The notes beneath the pieces are model-generated. The model was given only the letters and a program-made list of their open reading frames with translations. It had not been told where the DNA came from and did no database searches. The position numbers and the translations under genes were made by a program. This document shows, one piece after another, positions 34,299-51,132 of a DNA stretch of 64,000 nucleotides (within the stretch, counting starts at the first letter, position 1; each line of letters begins with the position of its first letter). Source of the DNA: Alcanivoracaceae bacterium (lineage in GTDB: Bacteria; Pseudomonadota; Gammaproteobacteria; Pseudomonadales; Alcanivoracaceae); the NCBI GenBank assembly GCA_029210325.1, contig JARGPU010000006.1:1-64000 (forward strand), given 5' to 3'.

Positions 34299-34449
34299 GC
34301 GCCCCGCTTTTACCGGGTGGTGCATCAAAGGTGACAGGACTCAGTGCTACGGGTATTGTCGGACGTTTAGTTGGGCCGAGGGGCCCAAGCCGGCGGAGCC
34401 GGTGGCACACTAACAGCGAGCAGTGAGTATGTTAAGGGAGTTGATCAGA

Positions 34450-35640
34450 ATGGCTACCCGCACCAAGAACAACAGCAAAAAACCGGCAGCCAAAGCCACC
34501 CCGAAGGCAGAAGCAGCCAAGAAAACGGCAGCCAAACCCGTCGCAAAAGCGGCTAAAAAGGCCACCCCTACGAAAAAAGCGGCGGCCAAACCTGCTGCGG
34601 CTAAAAAGGCCAGCAGTAGCAAAGCCAGCAAACCTGTCGCCAAGAAAACAGCTGTTAAACCGGCACCCAAGAAGCCCACAACTAAACCGGCGGCTAAAGT
34701 AGCGAAAAAGGCTGCAGCAAAGCCGGCCGCCGCCAAACCGGCCAGCAAGGCCAAAGCTCCGGCAAAAGCCGCAGCAAAAGCTAAAGCCAGCACCGTGAAA
34801 GCTGCTCCGGCAAAAGCCGCAAAAGCCACCTCGAACAAAAAAGCAGCGCCCGCTAAAGCGAAGGCCGCTGCCCCGGCAAAGGCCAAAGCAACTCCGGCAA
34901 AAGCCAGCACAACCAAGAAAGCCCCGGCCAAGGCAGCCGCTGCGAAAGCGCCTGCCAAGGCAAAAGCAACACCCAAGGCGCCCGCACCGAAGCCGGCCGC
35001 CGCCAAACCTGCGGCCAGCAAGCCGCCGGTAAAACAGGAAACCGCCAAACCGAAAACCGCCAGGAAGGCAGCGGTGAAGAAACCGACCCAAGCGTCGGCT
35101 ATTCCCGCCCGGCCCGCTTCCGCTTTACCGGCGAAACCGAGTGTGGGGAGAGCAACGCAGTCCTCCGTACAGGTATCGACACCCGTGAAACGCCAGAACA
35201 ATAGCGGCACTTTGCCCGCTTCCACCACTCCTATTTTTGGCATGGCACCGTACCAGCCGAGCAAAAACGAGGAGTACATGAATCCGGCTCAACATCAGCA
35301 CTTCCGCAAGATTTTGATGGCCTGGCGCCAGGAATTGATGGAAGAAGCAGATCGCACCATGCACCACCTGCAGGACGAGGCAGCCAATCTGCCGGACCCG
35401 AATGATCGTGCCACCCAGGAAGAAGAGTTCGCTCTGGAACTGCGCGCGCGCGACCGTGAGCGCAAACTTCTGAAAAAGATCGAGAAGGCGCTCGATATGA
35501 TCGACAAGGATGAATATGGCTGGTGCGAAGCCTGCGGCATTGAGATCGGCATTCGCCGCCTTGAAGCCCGGCCGACCGCCGAACTTTGCATCGATTGCAA
35601 AGAACTAGCCGAGATCAAGGAACGGCAGCTCGCCAGCTGA
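34450..35640 (+). CDS. dksA: DksA with long histone-H1-like Lys/Ala/Pro N-terminal extension
   Basis: 396 residues against about 150 for normal DksA. Residues about 1-225 are low-complexity repeats of K, A and P like AlgP/histone H1 tails, followed by a Ser/Pro-rich linker. Residues about 260-396 form a full DksA: APYQPSKNEEYM, coiled coil with tip DPNDRA, RDRERKLLKKIEKALDMI, and the zinc finger WCEACG...LCIDCK. DksA enters the RNA polymerase secondary channel with ppGpp. The start is ATG 34450 with GGGAG nine bases upstream; GTG 34423 and ATG 34429 are worse. The tail probably binds DNA non-specifically (inferred). Confidence 0.93.
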   Translation: MATRTKNNSKKPAAKATPKAEAAKKTAAKPVAKAAKKATPTKKAAAKPAAAKKASSSKASKPVAKKTAVKPAPKKPTTKPAAKVAKKAAAKPAAAKPASKAKAPAKAAAKAKASTVKAAPAKAAKATSNKKAAPAKAKAAAPAKAKATPAKASTTKKAPAKAAAAKAPAKAKATPKAPAPKPAAAKPAASKPPVKQETAKPKTARKAAVKKPTQASAIPARPASALPAKPSVGRATQSSVQVSTPVKRQNNSGTLPASTTPIFGMAPYQPSKNEEYMNPAQHQHFRKILMAWRQELMEEADRTMHHLQDEAANLPDPNDRATQEEEFALELRARDRERKLLKKIEKALDMIDKDEYGWCEACGIEIGIRRLEARPTAELCIDCKELAEIKERQLAS

Positions 35641-36608: not shown

Positions 36609-36785
36609 ATGTATACCGATCGCCTGCTGATCATTTTTATTCTCGGCACCTACCTGCTGTCACCAGCCATTATTGAGTGGTGGAGTGACGGCGGAAGAGC
36701 TTGGTTTCGCCCGTTTCTGGTGTGGATGCTATTGATCGGATTGAGCTACTGGATTGGCCGCAGCCGGGACTTCGATGGACTTTAA
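36609..36785 (+). CDS. cbrX: Small membrane protein CbrX-like
   Basis: 58 residues with two hydrophobic helices (LLIIFILGTYLLSPAII and FLVWMLLIGLSYWI). It immediately precedes cbrA and overlaps it by 11 bases. In Pseudomonas a small open reading frame, CbrX, occupies this position and is translationally coupled to cbrA. Sequence similarity cannot be checked here; the assignment rests on position, size, hydrophobicity and overlap. Its role is unknown, perhaps to set cbrA translation. Confidence 0.72.
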   Translation: MYTDRLLIIFILGTYLLSPAIIEWWSDGGRAWFRPFLVWMLLIGLSYWIGRSRDFDGL

Positions 36786-39732
36786 TTTCTACTTTCTGCT
36801 GGCCCTGGCTGCCGGCTACCTGTTTTTCCTGTTTCTGGTGGCATGGATCACCGACCGTGGCTGGCTGCCAGCCAGGCTGGTGCGCCACCCTGTGGTGTAT
36901 GTGTTTTCCCTGGGAGTTTACTGCAGTGCCTGGGCGATTTACGGCAGCGTTGGCTACGCCTATCAATATGGCTACAACTATCTGGCCTACTTTCTCGGCA
37001 TTTCTGGCGTGTTTCTGCTGGCGCCTATCTTGCTGGCCCCAATTCTGCGCCTGACCACCACCTATCAGCTCGGCTCTCTGGCCGACCTGTTTGCATTTCG
37101 CTATCGCAGCCGCGCAGCCGGGGCGCTAACCACCCTGATCATGCTGGTCAGCATGCTGCCGCTGCTAGCCATGCAGATTAAAGCAGTGTCCGAGTCAGTG
37201 GTAATTATGAGCGGCGACTCCCAACCGCTGGATGTCGCCATCTGGTTCTGCATGCTACTGACTCTGTTCGCTATTTTGTTTGGTGCCCGCCACGCCACCG
37301 CCCGAGAGAAGCACGAGGGCCTAGTGGTAGCGATGGCGACGGAATCACTGATTAAACTGGTCGCCTTTGTTGGCGTAGCACTGATTGGTCTGTTTGGCGT
37401 GTTTGACGGACCCAGCGGCCTCAACGAGTGGCTTGACCAGCACCCGGAAATGCTCGCCCGGCTGTACTTCCCGCTGCAAGACGGCACATGGCACAGCCTG
37501 ATTCTGGCGTTCTTTGTCTCTGCCGTAGTCATGCCACACATGTTTCATATGGCGTTTGCTGAAAACCTCAACCCGCGCGCGCTGGTCACCGCCAGCTGGG
37601 CAGTGCCAACAATGTTGTTGGTGATGGCCATCTGTGTGCCGGTAATCCTCTGGGCGGCCATGGCTAAAGACGTCGCCACGCCGGCGGATTATTTTGCCCT
37701 CGGCCTGAGCAGCCGATTTGGTGGGCAAGGCGCCCTACTGGCTTACATTGCCGGCCTGGCAGGCGCCACCGGCATGCTCATCGTTGCCACGCTAGCGCTG
37801 TCAGGTATGACTCTGCACCATCTGGTTCTGCCTCTGCGCCGGCCGGAGCCGGGAGAAGATCTCTACCGCTGGCTGCTTTGGGCCAGACGCATTTTGATTG
37901 TCGCAATTATTGGCTTGGCCTACCTGTTTTACTCCTGGGTCGGCCACCGCCACAGCCTGACAACTCTGGGTGTAATGTCGTTTGTCGCCACCTTGCAGTT
38001 TGTTCCCGGGCTGGTAGGCACACTGTTCTGGCCCGGGGGTAACCGCCGCGGAGTGCTAGCGGGCCTGGTGATCGGCTCCTCACTCTGGTTACTGCTGCTG
38101 GTGCTACCTGCGCTATCACCAGTCTGGCACTGGACCGCACTTTCCGAATTTCTCGGCCTGCGCTTTGCCAGCCCTGTTGACCAATGGCATACCATCGCAT
38201 TGATGTCTGTGGGAGCCAACGGCGCCGTGTTTGCGGTTATCTCCCTGCTCACTACCGCCAGCAGCGCCGAGCAGAATGCTGCCCAGACATGTGCGGTTGA
38301 TAGCCTGCGCCGCCCTTATCGCTGGAAGCTGGAGTCCAGCAATGTGGACGATTTTATCGGCTCACTGACAGCCCCCCTCGGCCCAGTCACCGCCGAACGG
38401 GAAATTGAGCTGGCCCTGCGTGATCTTGGCCTGAGCCGCAATGAAACCCGCCCCTACGCCCTGCGACGCCTGCGCGATCAACTGGAGACCAACCTGTCCG
38501 GCCTACTCGGCCCCTCAGTTGCTCATCAGCTTGTCGACGATCACCTTCCGTATAAGGCCCAGGGCGACGAAGAGAGCAACGAAGACATTCAGTTTATCGA
38601 GTCGCGTCTAGAGCAGTATCGCAGCCGCCTTTCTGGCCTTGCCGCCGAGCTCGACAGCCTGCGTCGTTTCCATCGGCAGACCCTGCTGGAACTGCCCATG
38701 GGGGTTGTCTCACTGGGTGCCGACGGCGAGATTATCGGCTGGAATCTGGCCATGGAGAAACTTACTGGCATCTCCGGCCAACGCATGACTGGCTCGCGTC
38801 TGGCAAATTTACCCAGCAACTGGCGCGAGCCTCTGCTGCGCTTTGCCACCGGGCCGGTACAGCATATGCCGCAACAGGAAATTGCCATTCGTGGTGTCAA
38901 CCGCTGGCTTAGCCTGCACAAGTCACGGGTGCATGAGTCGATTCACGGCGAACGGGACGCCGGTCAAGTTATCGTTGTTGAGGACATTACTGAGATTCGC
39001 GCATTGGAACTACGTGCTGCGCATAACGAACGCCTTGCCTCCATTGGCCGACTGGCAGCAGGGGTTGCCCATGAAATCGGCAACCCGGTGACAGCTATTG
39101 CCTGCCTGACGCAAAATATGGCGCTTGGCGCAACGGATGAGGAATTGCAACAAGGTACCGAGCAGATTCTGGAGCAAACCCGTCGCATCAGTCGTATCGT
39201 GGAATCCCTGGTAACCTTCAGCCATAGCGGTCAGCTGCCGCAGCAGCATCACTTGCCAGTGGATATTCATGACAGTGCGGCCGAAGCCATCGCCCTGCTA
39301 GCCATGGATCCGGACCGTCGCCAACAGCGATTTGTCAACGACTGCACCACCGGTCTGAAAGTGTCTGGCGATCCGCAGCGATTACTGCAGGTGTTTGTTA
39401 ACCTGTTTGCCAACGCTGCAGATGCCAGCCCCGACAACCAGCCAGTACGCATTACTACCAAAGCGCAGGACGGCCATGTGGAAGTCAATATTGAAGACCA
39501 CGGCCATGGCATCCCGGCAGCCCTGCTTGATACCCTGTTCGAACCCTTCGTGACCAGCAAGCCACCTGGCCGCGGAACCGGACTGGGACTGGCGCTGGTA
39601 TACAGCATCATTGAGGATCACAGCGGCAGCATTCGGGCAGAGAGCCCGATTGAGGGTGATCATGGCACCCGCTTTGTTATCAGACTGCCCGCCGTCGCGG
39701 CAGACACGGCAAGTAACGGGATCACCGCATGA
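36775..39732 (+). CDS. cbrA: Sensor histidine kinase CbrA with SLC5-transporter domain
   Basis: 985 residues, close to the P. aeruginosa length. Residues about 1-500 form a sodium/solute symporter-like (SLC5) membrane domain with about 13 helices. A STAC-like linker, a coiled coil and a PAS domain (about 630-745) follow, then HisKA with H766 in GVAHEIGNP, and a HATPase (NLFANAADAS, DHGHGIP, GRGTGLGLALV). It senses carbon/nitrogen status and histidine uptake and phosphorylates CbrB. The start at ATG 36775 fits the family. Ends overlapping cbrB by four bases. Confidence 0.93.
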   Translation: MDFNFYFLLALAAGYLFFLFLVAWITDRGWLPARLVRHPVVYVFSLGVYCSAWAIYGSVGYAYQYGYNYLAYFLGISGVFLLAPILLAPILRLTTTYQLGSLADLFAFRYRSRAAGALTTLIMLVSMLPLLAMQIKAVSESVVIMSGDSQPLDVAIWFCMLLTLFAILFGARHATAREKHEGLVVAMATESLIKLVAFVGVALIGLFGVFDGPSGLNEWLDQHPEMLARLYFPLQDGTWHSLILAFFVSAVVMPHMFHMAFAENLNPRALVTASWAVPTMLLVMAICVPVILWAAMAKDVATPADYFALGLSSRFGGQGALLAYIAGLAGATGMLIVATLALSGMTLHHLVLPLRRPEPGEDLYRWLLWARRILIVAIIGLAYLFYSWVGHRHSLTTLGVMSFVATLQFVPGLVGTLFWPGGNRRGVLAGLVIGSSLWLLLLVLPALSPVWHWTALSEFLGLRFASPVDQWHTIALMSVGANGAVFAVISLLTTASSAEQNAAQTCAVDSLRRPYRWKLESSNVDDFIGSLTAPLGPVTAEREIELALRDLGLSRNETRPYALRRLRDQLETNLSGLLGPSVAHQLVDDHLPYKAQGDEESNEDIQFIESRLEQYRSRLSGLAAELDSLRRFHRQTLLELPMGVVSLGADGEIIGWNLAMEKLTGISGQRMTGSRLANLPSNWREPLLRFATGPVQHMPQQEIAIRGVNRWLSLHKSRVHESIHGERDAGQVIVVEDITEIRALELRAAHNERLASIGRLAAGVAHEIGNPVTAIACLTQNMALGATDEELQQGTEQILEQTRRISRIVESLVTFSHSGQLPQQHHLPVDIHDSAAEAIALLAMDPDRRQQRFVNDCTTGLKVSGDPQRLLQVFVNLFANAADASPDNQPVRITTKAQDGHVEVNIEDHGHGIPAALLDTLFEPFVTSKPPGRGTGLGLALVYSIIEDHSGSIRAESPIEGDHGTRFVIRLPAVAADTASNGITA

Positions 39733-41072
39733 GTCATGTTCTGATTGTTGAAGATGAGCCGGTCATTCGCGGCGCACTGCGCAAATTACTTGAGCGCCAC
39801 GATCATAGCGTTGTCGAGGCCGAATCTGTGGAGCAGGCGGACGATCACGACCTGCAAGATTTCGATTTAATCATCAGTGATCTGCGACTGCCCGGCGCGC
39901 CCGGCACTAATCTTATCCTGCAGGCCAAACCGACTCCGGTGCTGATCATGACCAGCTACGCCAGCCTGCGCTCCGCCGTCGACGCGATGAAACTGGGCGC
40001 GGTGGACTACATTGCCAAACCTTTCGATCACGACGAGATGGTCATGGCGGTAAGCCGCATCCTTAAGGAGCGTGTCCTTAGGCGGGGCCATGATGTCCTG
40101 CGAGCGGATCTGGAGCAGCGCTACCCGGTCAGCGATATGGTTGGCGAGAGCCCGGTTATGCAGCAACTGGTACAACAGTTAGAGCGCATTGCCGCTACCG
40201 ATAGCAGCGTGCTGATCTGTGGCGAATCCGGCACTGGCAAGGAACTGGTAGCACGAACCCTGCATGACCGCAGCGAACGTAATCGCGGGCCCATGGTGTC
40301 AGTAAACTGCGCGGCCTTGGCCAGCGAGGAGCTGGAGCAACAATTATTCGGTACCGAGCGTGATGGTAACAACGGCCACAGCCGTCGCGGACTGGCCGAG
40401 ACTGCCGATGGTGGCACACTGTTTCTTGATGAGATTGACGAGCTGTCCGGGCCGGCCCAGGGGCGTCTGCTGCAGCTCCTGGAAAGCCAGATGGTTCAGC
40501 GTCTCGGTGCAACGGATGCGCGCCGCATAGATACGCGGGTGGTTGGCGCCAGCCACCGCGACCTCTCCCGGCTGGCAACAGAAGGACACTTCCGCAAGGA
40601 CCTCTACTACCGCCTGCAGGTTATCCAGCTGGCGCTGCCGCCACTGCGCGAGCGCGGTGAAGATATCCTGCTACTAGCGGACAGCCTGCTGGAGCGCATC
40701 AGCGTGCGACTCAACCTGAAGACAGGCGGCTTTAGCACCGATGCTCGCCGGGCCATGAGCCACTACTCCTGGCCTGGCAATGTCCGCGAGCTCGAGAATG
40801 CCATTGAGCGCGCGGTGATTCTTGCAGACGGCCAGCCTATTGGTGCCGACTTGCTAGGCATTGACCTGTCTGTCGTGCCAACACGCACCTTCCAGGACCC
40901 TGCCGAAGACCTGTCACTAGAGGATTACTTCGCTCGCTTCGTCATGGAGAATCAGGATCACATGACAGAGACCGAGCTGGCCCGCAAGCTGGGCATCAGC
41001 CGCAAGTGCCTGTGGGAACGCCGCCAACGACTTGGCATTCCGCGCAGCCGCAACAGTTCAACGGGTAGCTAA
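39729..41072 (+). CDS. cbrB: NtrC-family response regulator CbrB, lacking the GAFTGA loop
   Basis: 447 residues: receiver domain (phospho-acceptor D51 in LIISDLRLPGAPG), AAA+ ATPase with Walker A GESGTGKE (165-172) and Walker B GGTLFLDEIDEL, arginine fingers, and a Fis-type helix-turn-helix (TETELARKLGISRKCLWERRQRLG). Where sigma-54 activators have GAFTGA, this protein reads DGNNGH (212-217), two residues shorter overall in that loop. It may therefore not remodel sigma-54 holoenzyme and may act on sigma-70 promoters, as do other GAFTGA-less NtrC relatives. The D-x-D and ATPase residues seem intact. Confidence 0.93.
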   Translation: MSHVLIVEDEPVIRGALRKLLERHDHSVVEAESVEQADDHDLQDFDLIISDLRLPGAPGTNLILQAKPTPVLIMTSYASLRSAVDAMKLGAVDYIAKPFDHDEMVMAVSRILKERVLRRGHDVLRADLEQRYPVSDMVGESPVMQQLVQQLERIAATDSSVLICGESGTGKELVARTLHDRSERNRGPMVSVNCAALASEELEQQLFGTERDGNNGHSRRGLAETADGGTLFLDEIDELSGPAQGRLLQLLESQMVQRLGATDARRIDTRVVGASHRDLSRLATEGHFRKDLYYRLQVIQLALPPLRERGEDILLLADSLLERISVRLNLKTGGFSTDARRAMSHYSWPGNVRELENAIERAVILADGQPIGADLLGIDLSVVPTRTFQDPAEDLSLEDYFARFVMENQDHMTETELARKLGISRKCLWERRQRLGIPRSRNSSTGS

Positions 41073-41083
41073 CCAGCGTCAGA

Positions 41084-41100
41084 CGTAACCGAAGTGTTAC
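41084..41100. promoter_or_regulatory. Possible CbrB binding dyad upstream of the CrcZ-like RNA
   Basis: GTAAC (41085-41089) and GTTAC (41096-41100) form an inverted repeat six bases apart, right after the cbrB stop; the right half reads TGTTAC. As I remember it, the Pseudomonas CbrB recognition element is built on TGTTAC. The site lies about 100 bases before the likely 5' end of the small RNA. A further AT-rich dyad (AAAACA...TGTTGTTTT) is at 41156-41180. Confidence 0.4.
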
Positions 41101-41198
41101 CGTCCTACACAGAAAGTAAGTATGCGTATTGAGGGGTATTGCCCCGATTTGCGAAAAAAAACATAACCTGTTGTTTTTTATATACTTATGCTGTCATT

Positions 41199-41434
41199 GC
41201 AAAGACCAGCGCAGGGCGGCACCATAACTTCCAAGCCGGCTAACAATAAAAAACGGCGATGTGGCTCCCGGGTCAAATAATAAAAAGCCGGCAGAAATAA
41301 CAAAAACAACAGTTCTACGAGCCAATACAGCATGGTCAGCCAAACTGGCGGACCGAAGGCAAAACCAGAAAACGAAAAACAATAACAATAGAATCAGCGC
41401 AATAGGGATCACAGCGGAGCTGTGGTCCCTTTTT
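41199..41434 (+). ncRNA. crcZ: CrcZ-like small RNA titrating Hfq/Crc (5' end approximate)
   Basis: Lies between cbrB and pcnB, the exact locus of CrcZ in Pseudomonas. The plus strand has A-rich motifs matching the Crc/Hfq recognition AAYAAYAA exactly at 41242, 41276, 41296, 41378 and 41381, plus near-matches at 41305 and 41384. These are separated by short GC-rich stems; AAGCCGGC occurs twice (41233, 41285). It ends in a strong intrinsic terminator. No open reading frame is plausible. The 5' end is guessed from TATGCT (41187-41192); no sigma-54 -24/-12 element (GG-N10-GC with TTGC) is present. CrcZ sequesters Hfq-Crc and so relieves carbon-catabolite repression. Confidence 0.78.
41405..41434 (+). 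terminator. Intrinsic terminator of the CrcZ-like RNA
   Basis: An 11-base-pair stem with one G-T wobble (GGGATCACAGC / GCTGTGGTCCC), a GGA loop and five T residues. Confidence 0.9.
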
Positions 41435-41553
41435 AATTTCCGGGCACCCGTTCCTGACTAATCGCCAGCTCAGAGTCATTGTCATTACCTGACTGTGCCG
41501 CGGCAGTGTTAACATCCACCGTTCCCATGACACCCGCAAGGTCATTTCGTTTC

Positions 41554-42933
41554 ATGCTTCGCAAGATTGCCAGTTACCTGACGCAACCTCTGGACTCTGT
41601 GACCAGGCTGCTGGGACGAAGTTCCAGTTCTGTCCTGCCGGTTCCAGAAATCCATTCCCGTGAGCATCACGACATCTCTCGCCGCGACATGAGTCGTGCT
41701 GCGCTGAATGTCCTGTACGGCCTGAACAAAGGTGGCTTTGAAGCCTACCTCGTCGGCGGCTGCCTCCGCGATATCCTTAACGGTGTGACACCCAAAGACT
41801 TCGACGTGGTCACCAACGCGAGACCAGAAGAAGTACAGAAACTGTTTCGTCGTGCCCGGGTTATTGGTCGTCGCTTCAAGATCGCCCATGTCTACTTTGG
41901 TCAGGATGTTATCGAAGTGGCCACCTTCCGCGCGCTGTCAGAGCCTGACGAGCGCGAGGAATCCGAGCATGGCATGATCCTGCGCGACAACATTTACGGC
42001 TCTATAGAAGAAGACGCACTGCGTCGCGACTTCACCCTCAACGCCCTGTATTACAACATTGAAAACTTTGCCCTGTACGATTTCATGGGCAGCCTTGACG
42101 ATATTCGTGAAAGGCGCATCCGCATCATCGGCGACCCGGAGCGACGCTATCGCGAAGATCCGGTGCGCATGCTACGTGCCGCACGCTTTGCCGCAAAGAT
42201 GCAGTTTGAGCTGGAACCGGAAACCGAAAAGCCGATTCATCAGCTCGGGTTGAGCCTGCATCAGGTGCCCGCACCGCGAATGTTTGATGAAGTGTTAAAA
42301 CTGTTTCTCACCGGGCACGCCCTTGCATCAATGAAATCCCTGCAGCAACTGGGCCTGCTTGAGATCCTGATACCGGAGTCCGGCAAGCACCTGCACGAGC
42401 CCGGCGTTGGCCCAGTGTGGCATAGCCTGATTGAGCAGGCCTGCATCAATACTGACAAACGAATTGCCGAGAATCGCCCGGTCACACCGGCGTTTCTATT
42501 TGCAGTGCTACTGTGGCCCGCAGTGGTCGCTCGCACAGAGAAACATATTGAACATGGCGTTCCTTTTGCACCGGCACGACAGAAAGCAGCTGGCCAGGTC
42601 ATACATAGCCAGAATGAAATTACCGCCATCCCAAAACGTTTTGCCCAAGTAATTCGGGAAATCTGGGACATACAGTTACGCCTCGATAAACGTCAGGGCC
42701 GACATGCCGAGGTTTTGGTTGCCGACACTCGGTTTCGGGCCGGCTACGACTTCCTTCTGCTGCGCGAACAGGCCGGCGAAATTGAACCTGGTCTGGGAGA
42801 CTGGTGGACCCGCTATCAAGAAGAGGATGAACACGGCCGCATGGAAATGGTGCGCCAGCTGGGCAAATCTGCAGCGCCGGCGAAGAAAAAAAGGCGCCGG
42901 CGGCGCAAGCCGGCTGGCTCCGGAAGCCAATGA
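41554..42933 (+). CDS. pcnB: Poly(A) polymerase I
   Basis: Adds 3' poly(A) tails to RNAs to promote decay. 459 residues of the class II nucleotidyltransferase family: LVGGCLRDILNG and KDFDVVT give the GG and DxD catalytic residues. The family's RRDFTLNALYYN and RYREDPVRMLRAARFAAK segments follow. The C-terminus is Arg/Lys-rich, as in other PcnB. The ATG 41554 (MLRKIASYLTQP) matches the Pseudomonas N-terminus; upstream in-frame starts lack SDs. Overlaps folK by four bases. Confidence 0.96.
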   Translation: MLRKIASYLTQPLDSVTRLLGRSSSSVLPVPEIHSREHHDISRRDMSRAALNVLYGLNKGGFEAYLVGGCLRDILNGVTPKDFDVVTNARPEEVQKLFRRARVIGRRFKIAHVYFGQDVIEVATFRALSEPDEREESEHGMILRDNIYGSIEEDALRRDFTLNALYYNIENFALYDFMGSLDDIRERRIRIIGDPERRYREDPVRMLRAARFAAKMQFELEPETEKPIHQLGLSLHQVPAPRMFDEVLKLFLTGHALASMKSLQQLGLLEILIPESGKHLHEPGVGPVWHSLIEQACINTDKRIAENRPVTPAFLFAVLLWPAVVARTEKHIEHGVPFAPARQKAAGQVIHSQNEITAIPKRFAQVIREIWDIQLRLDKRQGRHAEVLVADTRFRAGYDFLLLREQAGEIEPGLGDWWTRYQEEDEHGRMEMVRQLGKSAAPAKKKRRRRRKPAGSGSQ

Positions 42934-50772: not shown

Positions 50773-51042
50773 TTAACGACGCAGGCCCAGACGCTCGATC
50801 AGGGTCAGGTAACGCTCACGGTCCTTACGAACCAGGTAGTCCAGCAACTTGCGACGCTGGTTTACCATGCGGATCAGGCCACGACGGCTGTGGTGATCCT
50901 TCTTGTGCTCCTTGAAGTGACCCTGCAGGTAGTTAATGTTGTGGGTCAGCAAAGCGACCTGAACTTCCGGTGAACCGGTGTCGCCATCTTTACGGCCATA
51001 TTCCTTAAGCAGGGTAGCCTTCTGTTCTACGGTTAATGCCAT
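50773..51042 (-). CDS. rpsO: 30S ribosomal protein S15
   Basis: 89 residues that match bacterial S15 along the full length ([37 protein letters not shown]). Binds the central domain of 16S rRNA early in 30S assembly. GGAG precedes the ATG. Between truB and pnp, as in all related genomes. Confidence 0.99.
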
Positions 51043-51132
51043 GTTACTTCTCCAATTAAATATGCGATCAAAGATTCACGCACAGCCGCGCATATTTACA
51101 GCTGTCGTGATGTGCCAGTCATGAGGATGACC

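Follow-up and report, generated by a model that had tools for sequence, protein, structure and literature searches.

A CrcZ-like RNA at the cbrB-pcnB locus of Alcanivoracaceae, a candidate Hfq decoy in a family in which Crc was not found

The cbrB-pcnB gap and its RNA

We analyzed a window of 64,000 nucleotides from an Alcanivoracaceae bacterium (GCA_029210325.1, contig JARGPU010000006.1, positions 1 to 64,000), in which a first-pass annotation had placed a CrcZ-like RNA in the gap between cbrB and pcnB. The neighbors agree with this placement, with cbrA and cbrB upstream of the proposed interval and pcnB downstream. The features of the genes and of the RNA are as follows.

36754 to 39732, + strand: cbrA-like sensor kinase (HisKA, HATPase_c, and PAS domains), start codon uncertain
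39729 to 41072, + strand: cbrB (receiver, AAA+ domain, and CbrB-type HTH; Walker A GESGTGKE kept)
41226 to 41434, + strand: CrcZ-like RNA, 5' end inferred rather than mapped
41235 to 41257, + strand: hairpin P1 with an AAN-rich loop, from local folds
41242 to 41249, + strand: AAYAAYAA motif 1
41263 to 41323, + strand: P2, GGCTC/GAGCC around an AAN-rich loop, from the consensus fold (folding of the window sequence offers alternatives)
41276 to 41283, + strand: AAYAAYAA motif 2
41296 to 41303, + strand: AAYAAYAA motif 3
41333 to 41355, + strand: hairpin P3, from local folds, widely divergent in sequence among genomes
41378 to 41388, + strand: overlapping AAYAAYAA motifs 4 and 5, inside a conserved AAN tail
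41390 to 41401, + strand: 12-mer AGAATCAGCGCA, a possible seed, the same in 34/35 aligned RNAs, the remaining one having a single substitution
41404 to 41434, + strand: intrinsic terminator (hairpin 41404 to 41430 of 12 pairs, then T-rich)
41554 to 42933, + strand: pcnB, poly(A) polymerase, ATG start assumed (a TTG further upstream is possible)

The five exact AAYAAYAA motifs that had been reported (starting at 41242, 41276, 41296, 41378, and 41381) are all present at these positions on the + strand, and they exceed chance: five occur in 41199 to 41434 versus 0.19 expected, and none of 2,000 dinucleotide shuffles reached five. The two near-matches reported beside them were an undercount, since seven further positions carry one mismatch. 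The whole window holds 12 motifs on both strands versus a mean of 4.06 in window shuffles. The end of the interval first proposed, 41199 to 41434, is correct, and its start belongs about 27 nt further downstream: the RNA is conserved over 41226 to 41434, and 41197 to 41225 is promoter-like. The strong terminator described at its end is present, with 12 pairs and a T-rich run, and is conserved in the family. Because a terminator scan of 40900 to 41700 gave one terminator-like site versus 0.9 in shuffles, the terminator call rests on conservation and not on the scan.

The interval first proposed folds more stably than 200 shuffles (z, -3.27). P2 and the terminator were the only helices predicted by RNAalifold from an alignment of 35 genomes; the arms of P1 and P3 were placed by a best-helix search, which finds a helix in any sequence, and the only support that we counted is covariation in the terminator. 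Elsewhere in the window, DksA (34423 to 35640) has its Pfam domains at residues 290 to 397 behind a histone-H1-like N-terminal extension of about 265 residues rich in Lys, Ala, and Pro, and a ribosomal S15 leader (50986 to 51109, - strand) scores 39.7 bits against an Rfam cut-off of 39.5.

Conservation of the RNA and comparison with CrcZ

All family counts refer to Alcanivoracaceae (f1), the family of the window genome; "order" denotes the genome-database grouping that includes Pseudomonas-like genomes, whereas NCBI puts Alcanivoracaceae in Oceanospirillales. A first search of 36 f1 genomes gave cbrB at an E value of 1e-90 or better in 35, the miss (G002) being 64% complete. The alignment and the promoter and CbrB counts cover 35 family genomes, with 10 further family genomes held out as a test.

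A covariance-model scan of relatives, one of the checks proposed with the first-pass annotation, gave a match in 45/46 family genomes, with one 64% complete genome as the exception, and in all 41 good ones, including 10 outside model building; one genome (G322) gave two matches. The RNA lies inside the cbrB-pcnB gap in 35/35 family genomes with cbrB, with pcnB downstream on the same strand in all 35 and cbrA upstream in 34, the contig being cut in the remaining one. The alignment of 35 family genomes has a common order of P1 and P2 with A-rich loops, the variable P3, the AAN tail, AGAATCAGCGCA, and the terminator. Each RNA carries 3 to 10 AAYAAYAA motifs, more than its dinucleotide shuffles in 35/35 cases. 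Furthermore, in the last five triplets of the tail, positions 1 and 2 are A in at least 33 of the 35 RNAs, and position 3 is variable, as expected if the triplets fit the A-R-N pockets of the Hfq distal face. The claim that locus and motif density are retained outside Pseudomonas is thus borne out by genome comparison, which shows conservation of an AAN-rich, separately terminated RNA at the crcZ locus.

With pcnB next downstream and in the same orientation, the arrangement is the one expected if the gap were merely a pcnB leader or a decaying crcZ relic. We regard this as highly improbable, since a terminator with a covarying stem stands between the RNA and pcnB (pairing is kept at one position where 16/35 sequences have changed on both sides), and since the RNA, its motifs, and its promoter are conserved across the family.

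The near-invariant AGAATCAGCGCA may be a seed or a protein site. The RNA might be an Hfq-dependent, trans-acting, base-pairing sRNA with this 12-mer as its seed, the AAN tracts merely loading Hfq. Consistent with this, the 12-mer hardly varies although the hairpins diverge, and it is unpaired in the consensus fold. We consider this account unlikely: several separate AAN tracts under selection exceed the needs of loading, the fold of the interval first proposed pairs some of the 12-mer, albeit with bases that precede the inferred RNA start, and 11-mer complements in the window with at most two mismatches number 35 versus 28.8 expected, a count reached by 15 of 100 shuffles. Decoy and seed roles can coexist.

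Compared with Pseudomonas CrcZ (RF01675, with CrcY and CrcX), the family RNA shares the cbrB-pcnB locus, the strand, AAN tracts between hairpins, the terminator, an IHF-like site and the CbrB subsite TGTTAC upstream (with GTAACA at about -91 in 30/35), and the presence of Hfq. It differs in being about half as long and in its additional near-invariant 12-mer, and it departs from CrcZ on three marks, namely the Rfam score, the sigma-54 promoter, and Crc, besides a CbrB without GAFTGA. Filing under RF01675 was rejected at 9.9 bits against a cut-off of 95; the same model gave 212 to 355 bits for four named Pseudomonadaceae loci and the Pseudomonas-like genome G055, and no match for the Alcanivorax loci L087 and L119. 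We therefore regard the RNA as a CrcZ-like, positionally homologous variant, which by inference may also work as CrcZ does.

No paper on CrcZ in Alcanivorax was found in the literature collection searched. The main text of a dRNA-seq study of A. dieselolei B-5 (PMC9788540) names neither CrcZ, cbrB, pcnB, nor such an RNA, and its supplements may list it under a coordinate name. By description alone, sRNA99 of Acinetobacter baumannii, with three AAN motifs and CrcZ-like behavior in RIL-seq (PMC12802169, in part), resembles the family RNA.

The promoter and the sigma-54 loop of CbrB

Upstream of the RNA and in CbrB itself, the window contains the following features.

40353 to 40388, + strand: CbrB loop L1, TERDGNNGHSRR at the place of GAFTGA in other families
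41095 to 41100, + strand: predicted CbrB forward subsite TGTTAC, 102 bp before the -35-like box (subsite definition, PMC6296734, in part)
41116 to 41121, + strand: predicted degenerate reverse CbrB subsite GTAAGT (same definition)
41164 to 41176, + strand: IHF-like site TAACCTGTTGTTT, one mismatch to the consensus, starting 33 bp before the -35-like box
41197 to 41202, + strand: -35-like TTGCAA, where relatives have the -24 box of a sigma-54 promoter
41220 to 41225, + strand: -10-like CACCAT (family consensus CANNAT; spacer of 17 in 35/35)

The motif TTGCAW-N17-CANNAT is found in 44 of 45 family genomes versus 0 of 54 elsewhere. As it was read off the alignment, its 34/35 there is descriptive, and the 10/10 in held-out genomes is the test. 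Promoter and motif counts outside the family refer to the 800 nt after cbrB in 54 of 56 stretches, those with at least 350 nt of sequence. Within this distance, a sigma-54 box with at most one mismatch occurs in 45/54 elsewhere versus 1/35 in the family, and the sole family match (G026, offset 720) lies beyond the RNA terminator. No such box precedes the RNA in 35/35 aligned or 10/10 held-out family genomes, which speaks against a promoter still of the sigma-54 class. Judged from its motifs, the promoter class seems converted, the sigma-54 box being replaced by a sigma-70-like motif whose sigma factor is predicted. A general sigma-70 scan of 40900 to 41700 returned no promoter, and the -10-like hexamer is a weak match to TATAAT.

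For the IHF-like site we used the consensus YAAN4TTGATW. The site starts 33 bp before TTGCAW in 34/35 family genomes (within two mismatches and one bp) and elsewhere most often 32 bp before TGGCAC (19/45), which implies that TTGCAW occupies the place of the -24 box. TGTTAC is retained in 35/35 family genomes, 112 to 114 bp before the -35-like box in 30 and 101 to 102 bp before it in 5, two spacing classes that differ by about one helical turn. GTAACA is present at about -91 in 30/35; genomes G000, G001, G003, G006, and G010, the window included, have no clean copy. More than 90 bp separate these predicted sites from the -35-like box downstream, a distance unusual for direct sigma-70 activation.

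The GAFTGA loop of CbrB-type activators makes the contact with sigma-54. This loop is altered or deleted in 45/45 family CbrB proteins (35/35 and 10/10 held out) and present in 55/55 CbrB of other families, P. aeruginosa PA7 included, with GSFTGA and GAFSGA scored as intact. Three family loops are near intact, GAFAAA (G003), GAFEGA (G006), and GAFAGA (G010), and in these, where only one or two residues differ, lost contact with sigma-54 is a less secure conclusion. The receiver and HTH are kept, as is the Walker A form except in G008, and Walker B (FLDE) fits 28/35 proteins. The family proteins thus look like bacterial enhancer-binding proteins without GAFTGA (loop L1 altered or deleted, Walker A and HTH kept), the exceptions being G008 and the three near-intact genomes. 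Their DNA-binding domain is nearly identical to that of other families. In a tree of 90 rows, a branch with 100/99 support separates the family proteins from the rest. The CbrB of G008 (locus L083) has a very long branch, a Walker A of GEASTGKQ, and an altered Walker B, and it may be losing its ATPase. RpoN is still present in 54/57 relatives, the three misses being incomplete genomes. The first-pass annotation mentioned neither the changed CbrB nor the replaced promoter box.

NtrC-type proteins without GAFTGA are described as acting at sigma-70 promoters (PMC10274813, in part). The family resembles the cases of NtrC in Rhodobacter capsulatus and Caulobacter and of VpsR in Vibrio cholerae, discussed in that source, in the deleted or altered loop L1 and the sigma-70-like target promoter; it differs in that the activator is CbrB, the target is a predicted Hfq-decoy RNA, and activation is predicted from promoter geometry. 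It is also conceivable that the Hfq decoy is no longer driven by CbrB and is constitutive or under another regulator, the CbrB sites serving, for example, autoregulation. The universal loss of an intact sigma-54 loop, the altered Walker B in 7/35, the reverse subsite missing at -91 in 5/35 (the window included), and the sigma-70-like promoter are compatible with such uncoupling. Nevertheless, TGTTAC is kept in every genome at helically phased spacing, the IHF-like site is in place in all genomes but one, and the DNA-binding domain of CbrB is nearly unchanged, and we hold uncoupling to be rather unlikely.

CbrB matches were found in 224 of 293 order genomes at an E value of 1e-95, in contradiction to the published statement that CbrAB is unique to Pseudomonadaceae (PMC8871633 and PMC6296734, each in part). 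In many families of the order, there are CrcZ-like gaps that combine CbrB sites with a sigma-54 box and AAN tracts; among 54 non-family gaps, 45 contain TGTTAC, 46 GTAACA, and 48 at least two AAYAAYAA motifs. Part or all of these features are missing in G182, G044, G042, G043, G052, and G070, and pcnB was found downstream in 41/56, some stretches being short. Two successive sigma-54 boxes follow cbrB in L072, L179, L184, L196, L198, and L201, which suggests tandem CrcZ-like RNAs. In G060 (locus L178), of another family of the order, the RNA is like the family RNA in locus, AAN tracts, and CbrB sites, contains the GCCAATGCAGTGC present in many family members, and reaches 36.0 bits (E value, 8e-5) with the family covariance model, whereas its sigma-54 promoter, GAFTGA, and Crc are all present.

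Crc, Hfq, and the predicted decoy

Crc was not detected in any of 46 family genomes (P. aeruginosa Crc query verified against PDB 4jg3; E value, 1e-15). The same query matches 241/293 order genomes at 1e-20. Among 21 other-family genomes compared, 19 have Crc; G037 and G053 do not, and those of G051 and G052 have only 30 to 32% identity. Weaker matches inside the family reach at most about 39 bits. None of the four PF03372 proteins of the window genome is Crc: one, the weak match of that genome, is XthA (scoring 382.9 bits with exonuclease III of E. coli versus 38.1 with Crc 4jg3), and the other three nuclease-fold proteins were judged unrelated by eye. The gene order is pyrE-crc-rph in two Crc-positive relatives, and pyrE adjoins rph without crc between them in 3/3 family genomes tested, 0 to about 81 nt apart from stop to start. 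The absence of a Crc homologue from Alcanivorax is already in print, in a 2022 sRNA survey that turned to CsrA instead (PMC9788540, in the part available).

The adjacency of pyrE and rph without crc recurs in G100, of family f29, where, of 11 genomes listed with CbrB, 10 are without a Crc match and all 10 keep GAFTGA. Eight of these 10 gaps (L167, L169 to L174, and L176, from G100, G203, G223, G242, G280, G261, G158, and G131) have a sigma-54 box and 9 to 15 AAYAAYAA motifs; of the other two, that of G299 is cut short and that of G182 holds other genes. This pattern speaks against Crc loss alone as the driver of the rewiring, and it indicates that the losses of Crc and of the sigma-54 contact and box are separable.

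Hfq was found in 55/57 relatives, the two misses being incomplete genomes, and its Sm core is conserved in the family. Position 25, the tyrosine altered in the P. aeruginosa Y25D work, is F in 28/28 family sequences read; F is also found in the Crc-positive relative G049, and tyrosine in G039. A search for motifs before ATG gave 66 AACAAYAA-ATG versus 28 for the reversed pattern, an excess that may only reflect A-rich leaders, and 10 proteins scanned from the candidates had no clear catabolic theme.

The first-pass annotation had proposed a decoy that sequesters Hfq together with Crc and had named an absent crc as evidence against it. The absence tells against the Crc half only, because in P. 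aeruginosa Hfq is described as the RNA-binding repressor titrated by CrcZ, with Crc ancillary or elusive in role (PMC4063720, in part). The Hfq half is compatible with the presence of Hfq and the conservation of an AAN-rich RNA. Another protein may have taken over from Crc beside Hfq on AAN-rich RNA, as the whole family keeps the RNA with no Crc found, and full repression in P. aeruginosa requires Crc (PMC4063720, in part). The search, which covered PF03372 proteins and Crc matches, yielded no candidate, and we consider such a replacement quite improbable.

We consider it moderately probable that the RNA is a CrcZ-type decoy that titrates Hfq alone, with its CbrB-activated promoter rewired from sigma-54 to sigma-70; action through Hfq only is proposed because no Crc was found in the family. 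The gap would encode an independently started and terminated RNA of about 200 nt, whose two hairpin loops and single-stranded tail display the AAN triplets. Carbon stress would be signaled through CbrA to CbrB, which, at the retained TGTTAC/GTAACA sites and aided by IHF bending, would activate the housekeeping sigma-70 polymerase. The RNA would then bind the Hfq distal face through its AAN tracts and titrate Hfq, and mRNAs with AAN tracts at their start regions would be freed from repression, with a consequent effect on carbon use.

We consider it about as likely as not that the whole family runs a Crc-free catabolite decoy. In this scenario the sigma-54 loop would have disappeared from CbrB, the -24 box of the decoy promoter would have turned into a sigma-70 -35 box, crc would have been cleanly lost between pyrE and rph, and the RNA would have stayed under strong selection as an Hfq-only sponge. 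If this is true, the Hfq decoy, and not Crc, would be the ancient core of carbon-catabolite control. A Crc-less family with a strongly selected decoy would offer a natural test of the role of Crc beside Hfq, and a case in which a regulatory RNA is kept while the type of activator and the class of promoter seem to be swapped. As Alcanivorax members are key oil degraders, the RNA may offer the missing post-transcriptional switch for their choice of carbon.
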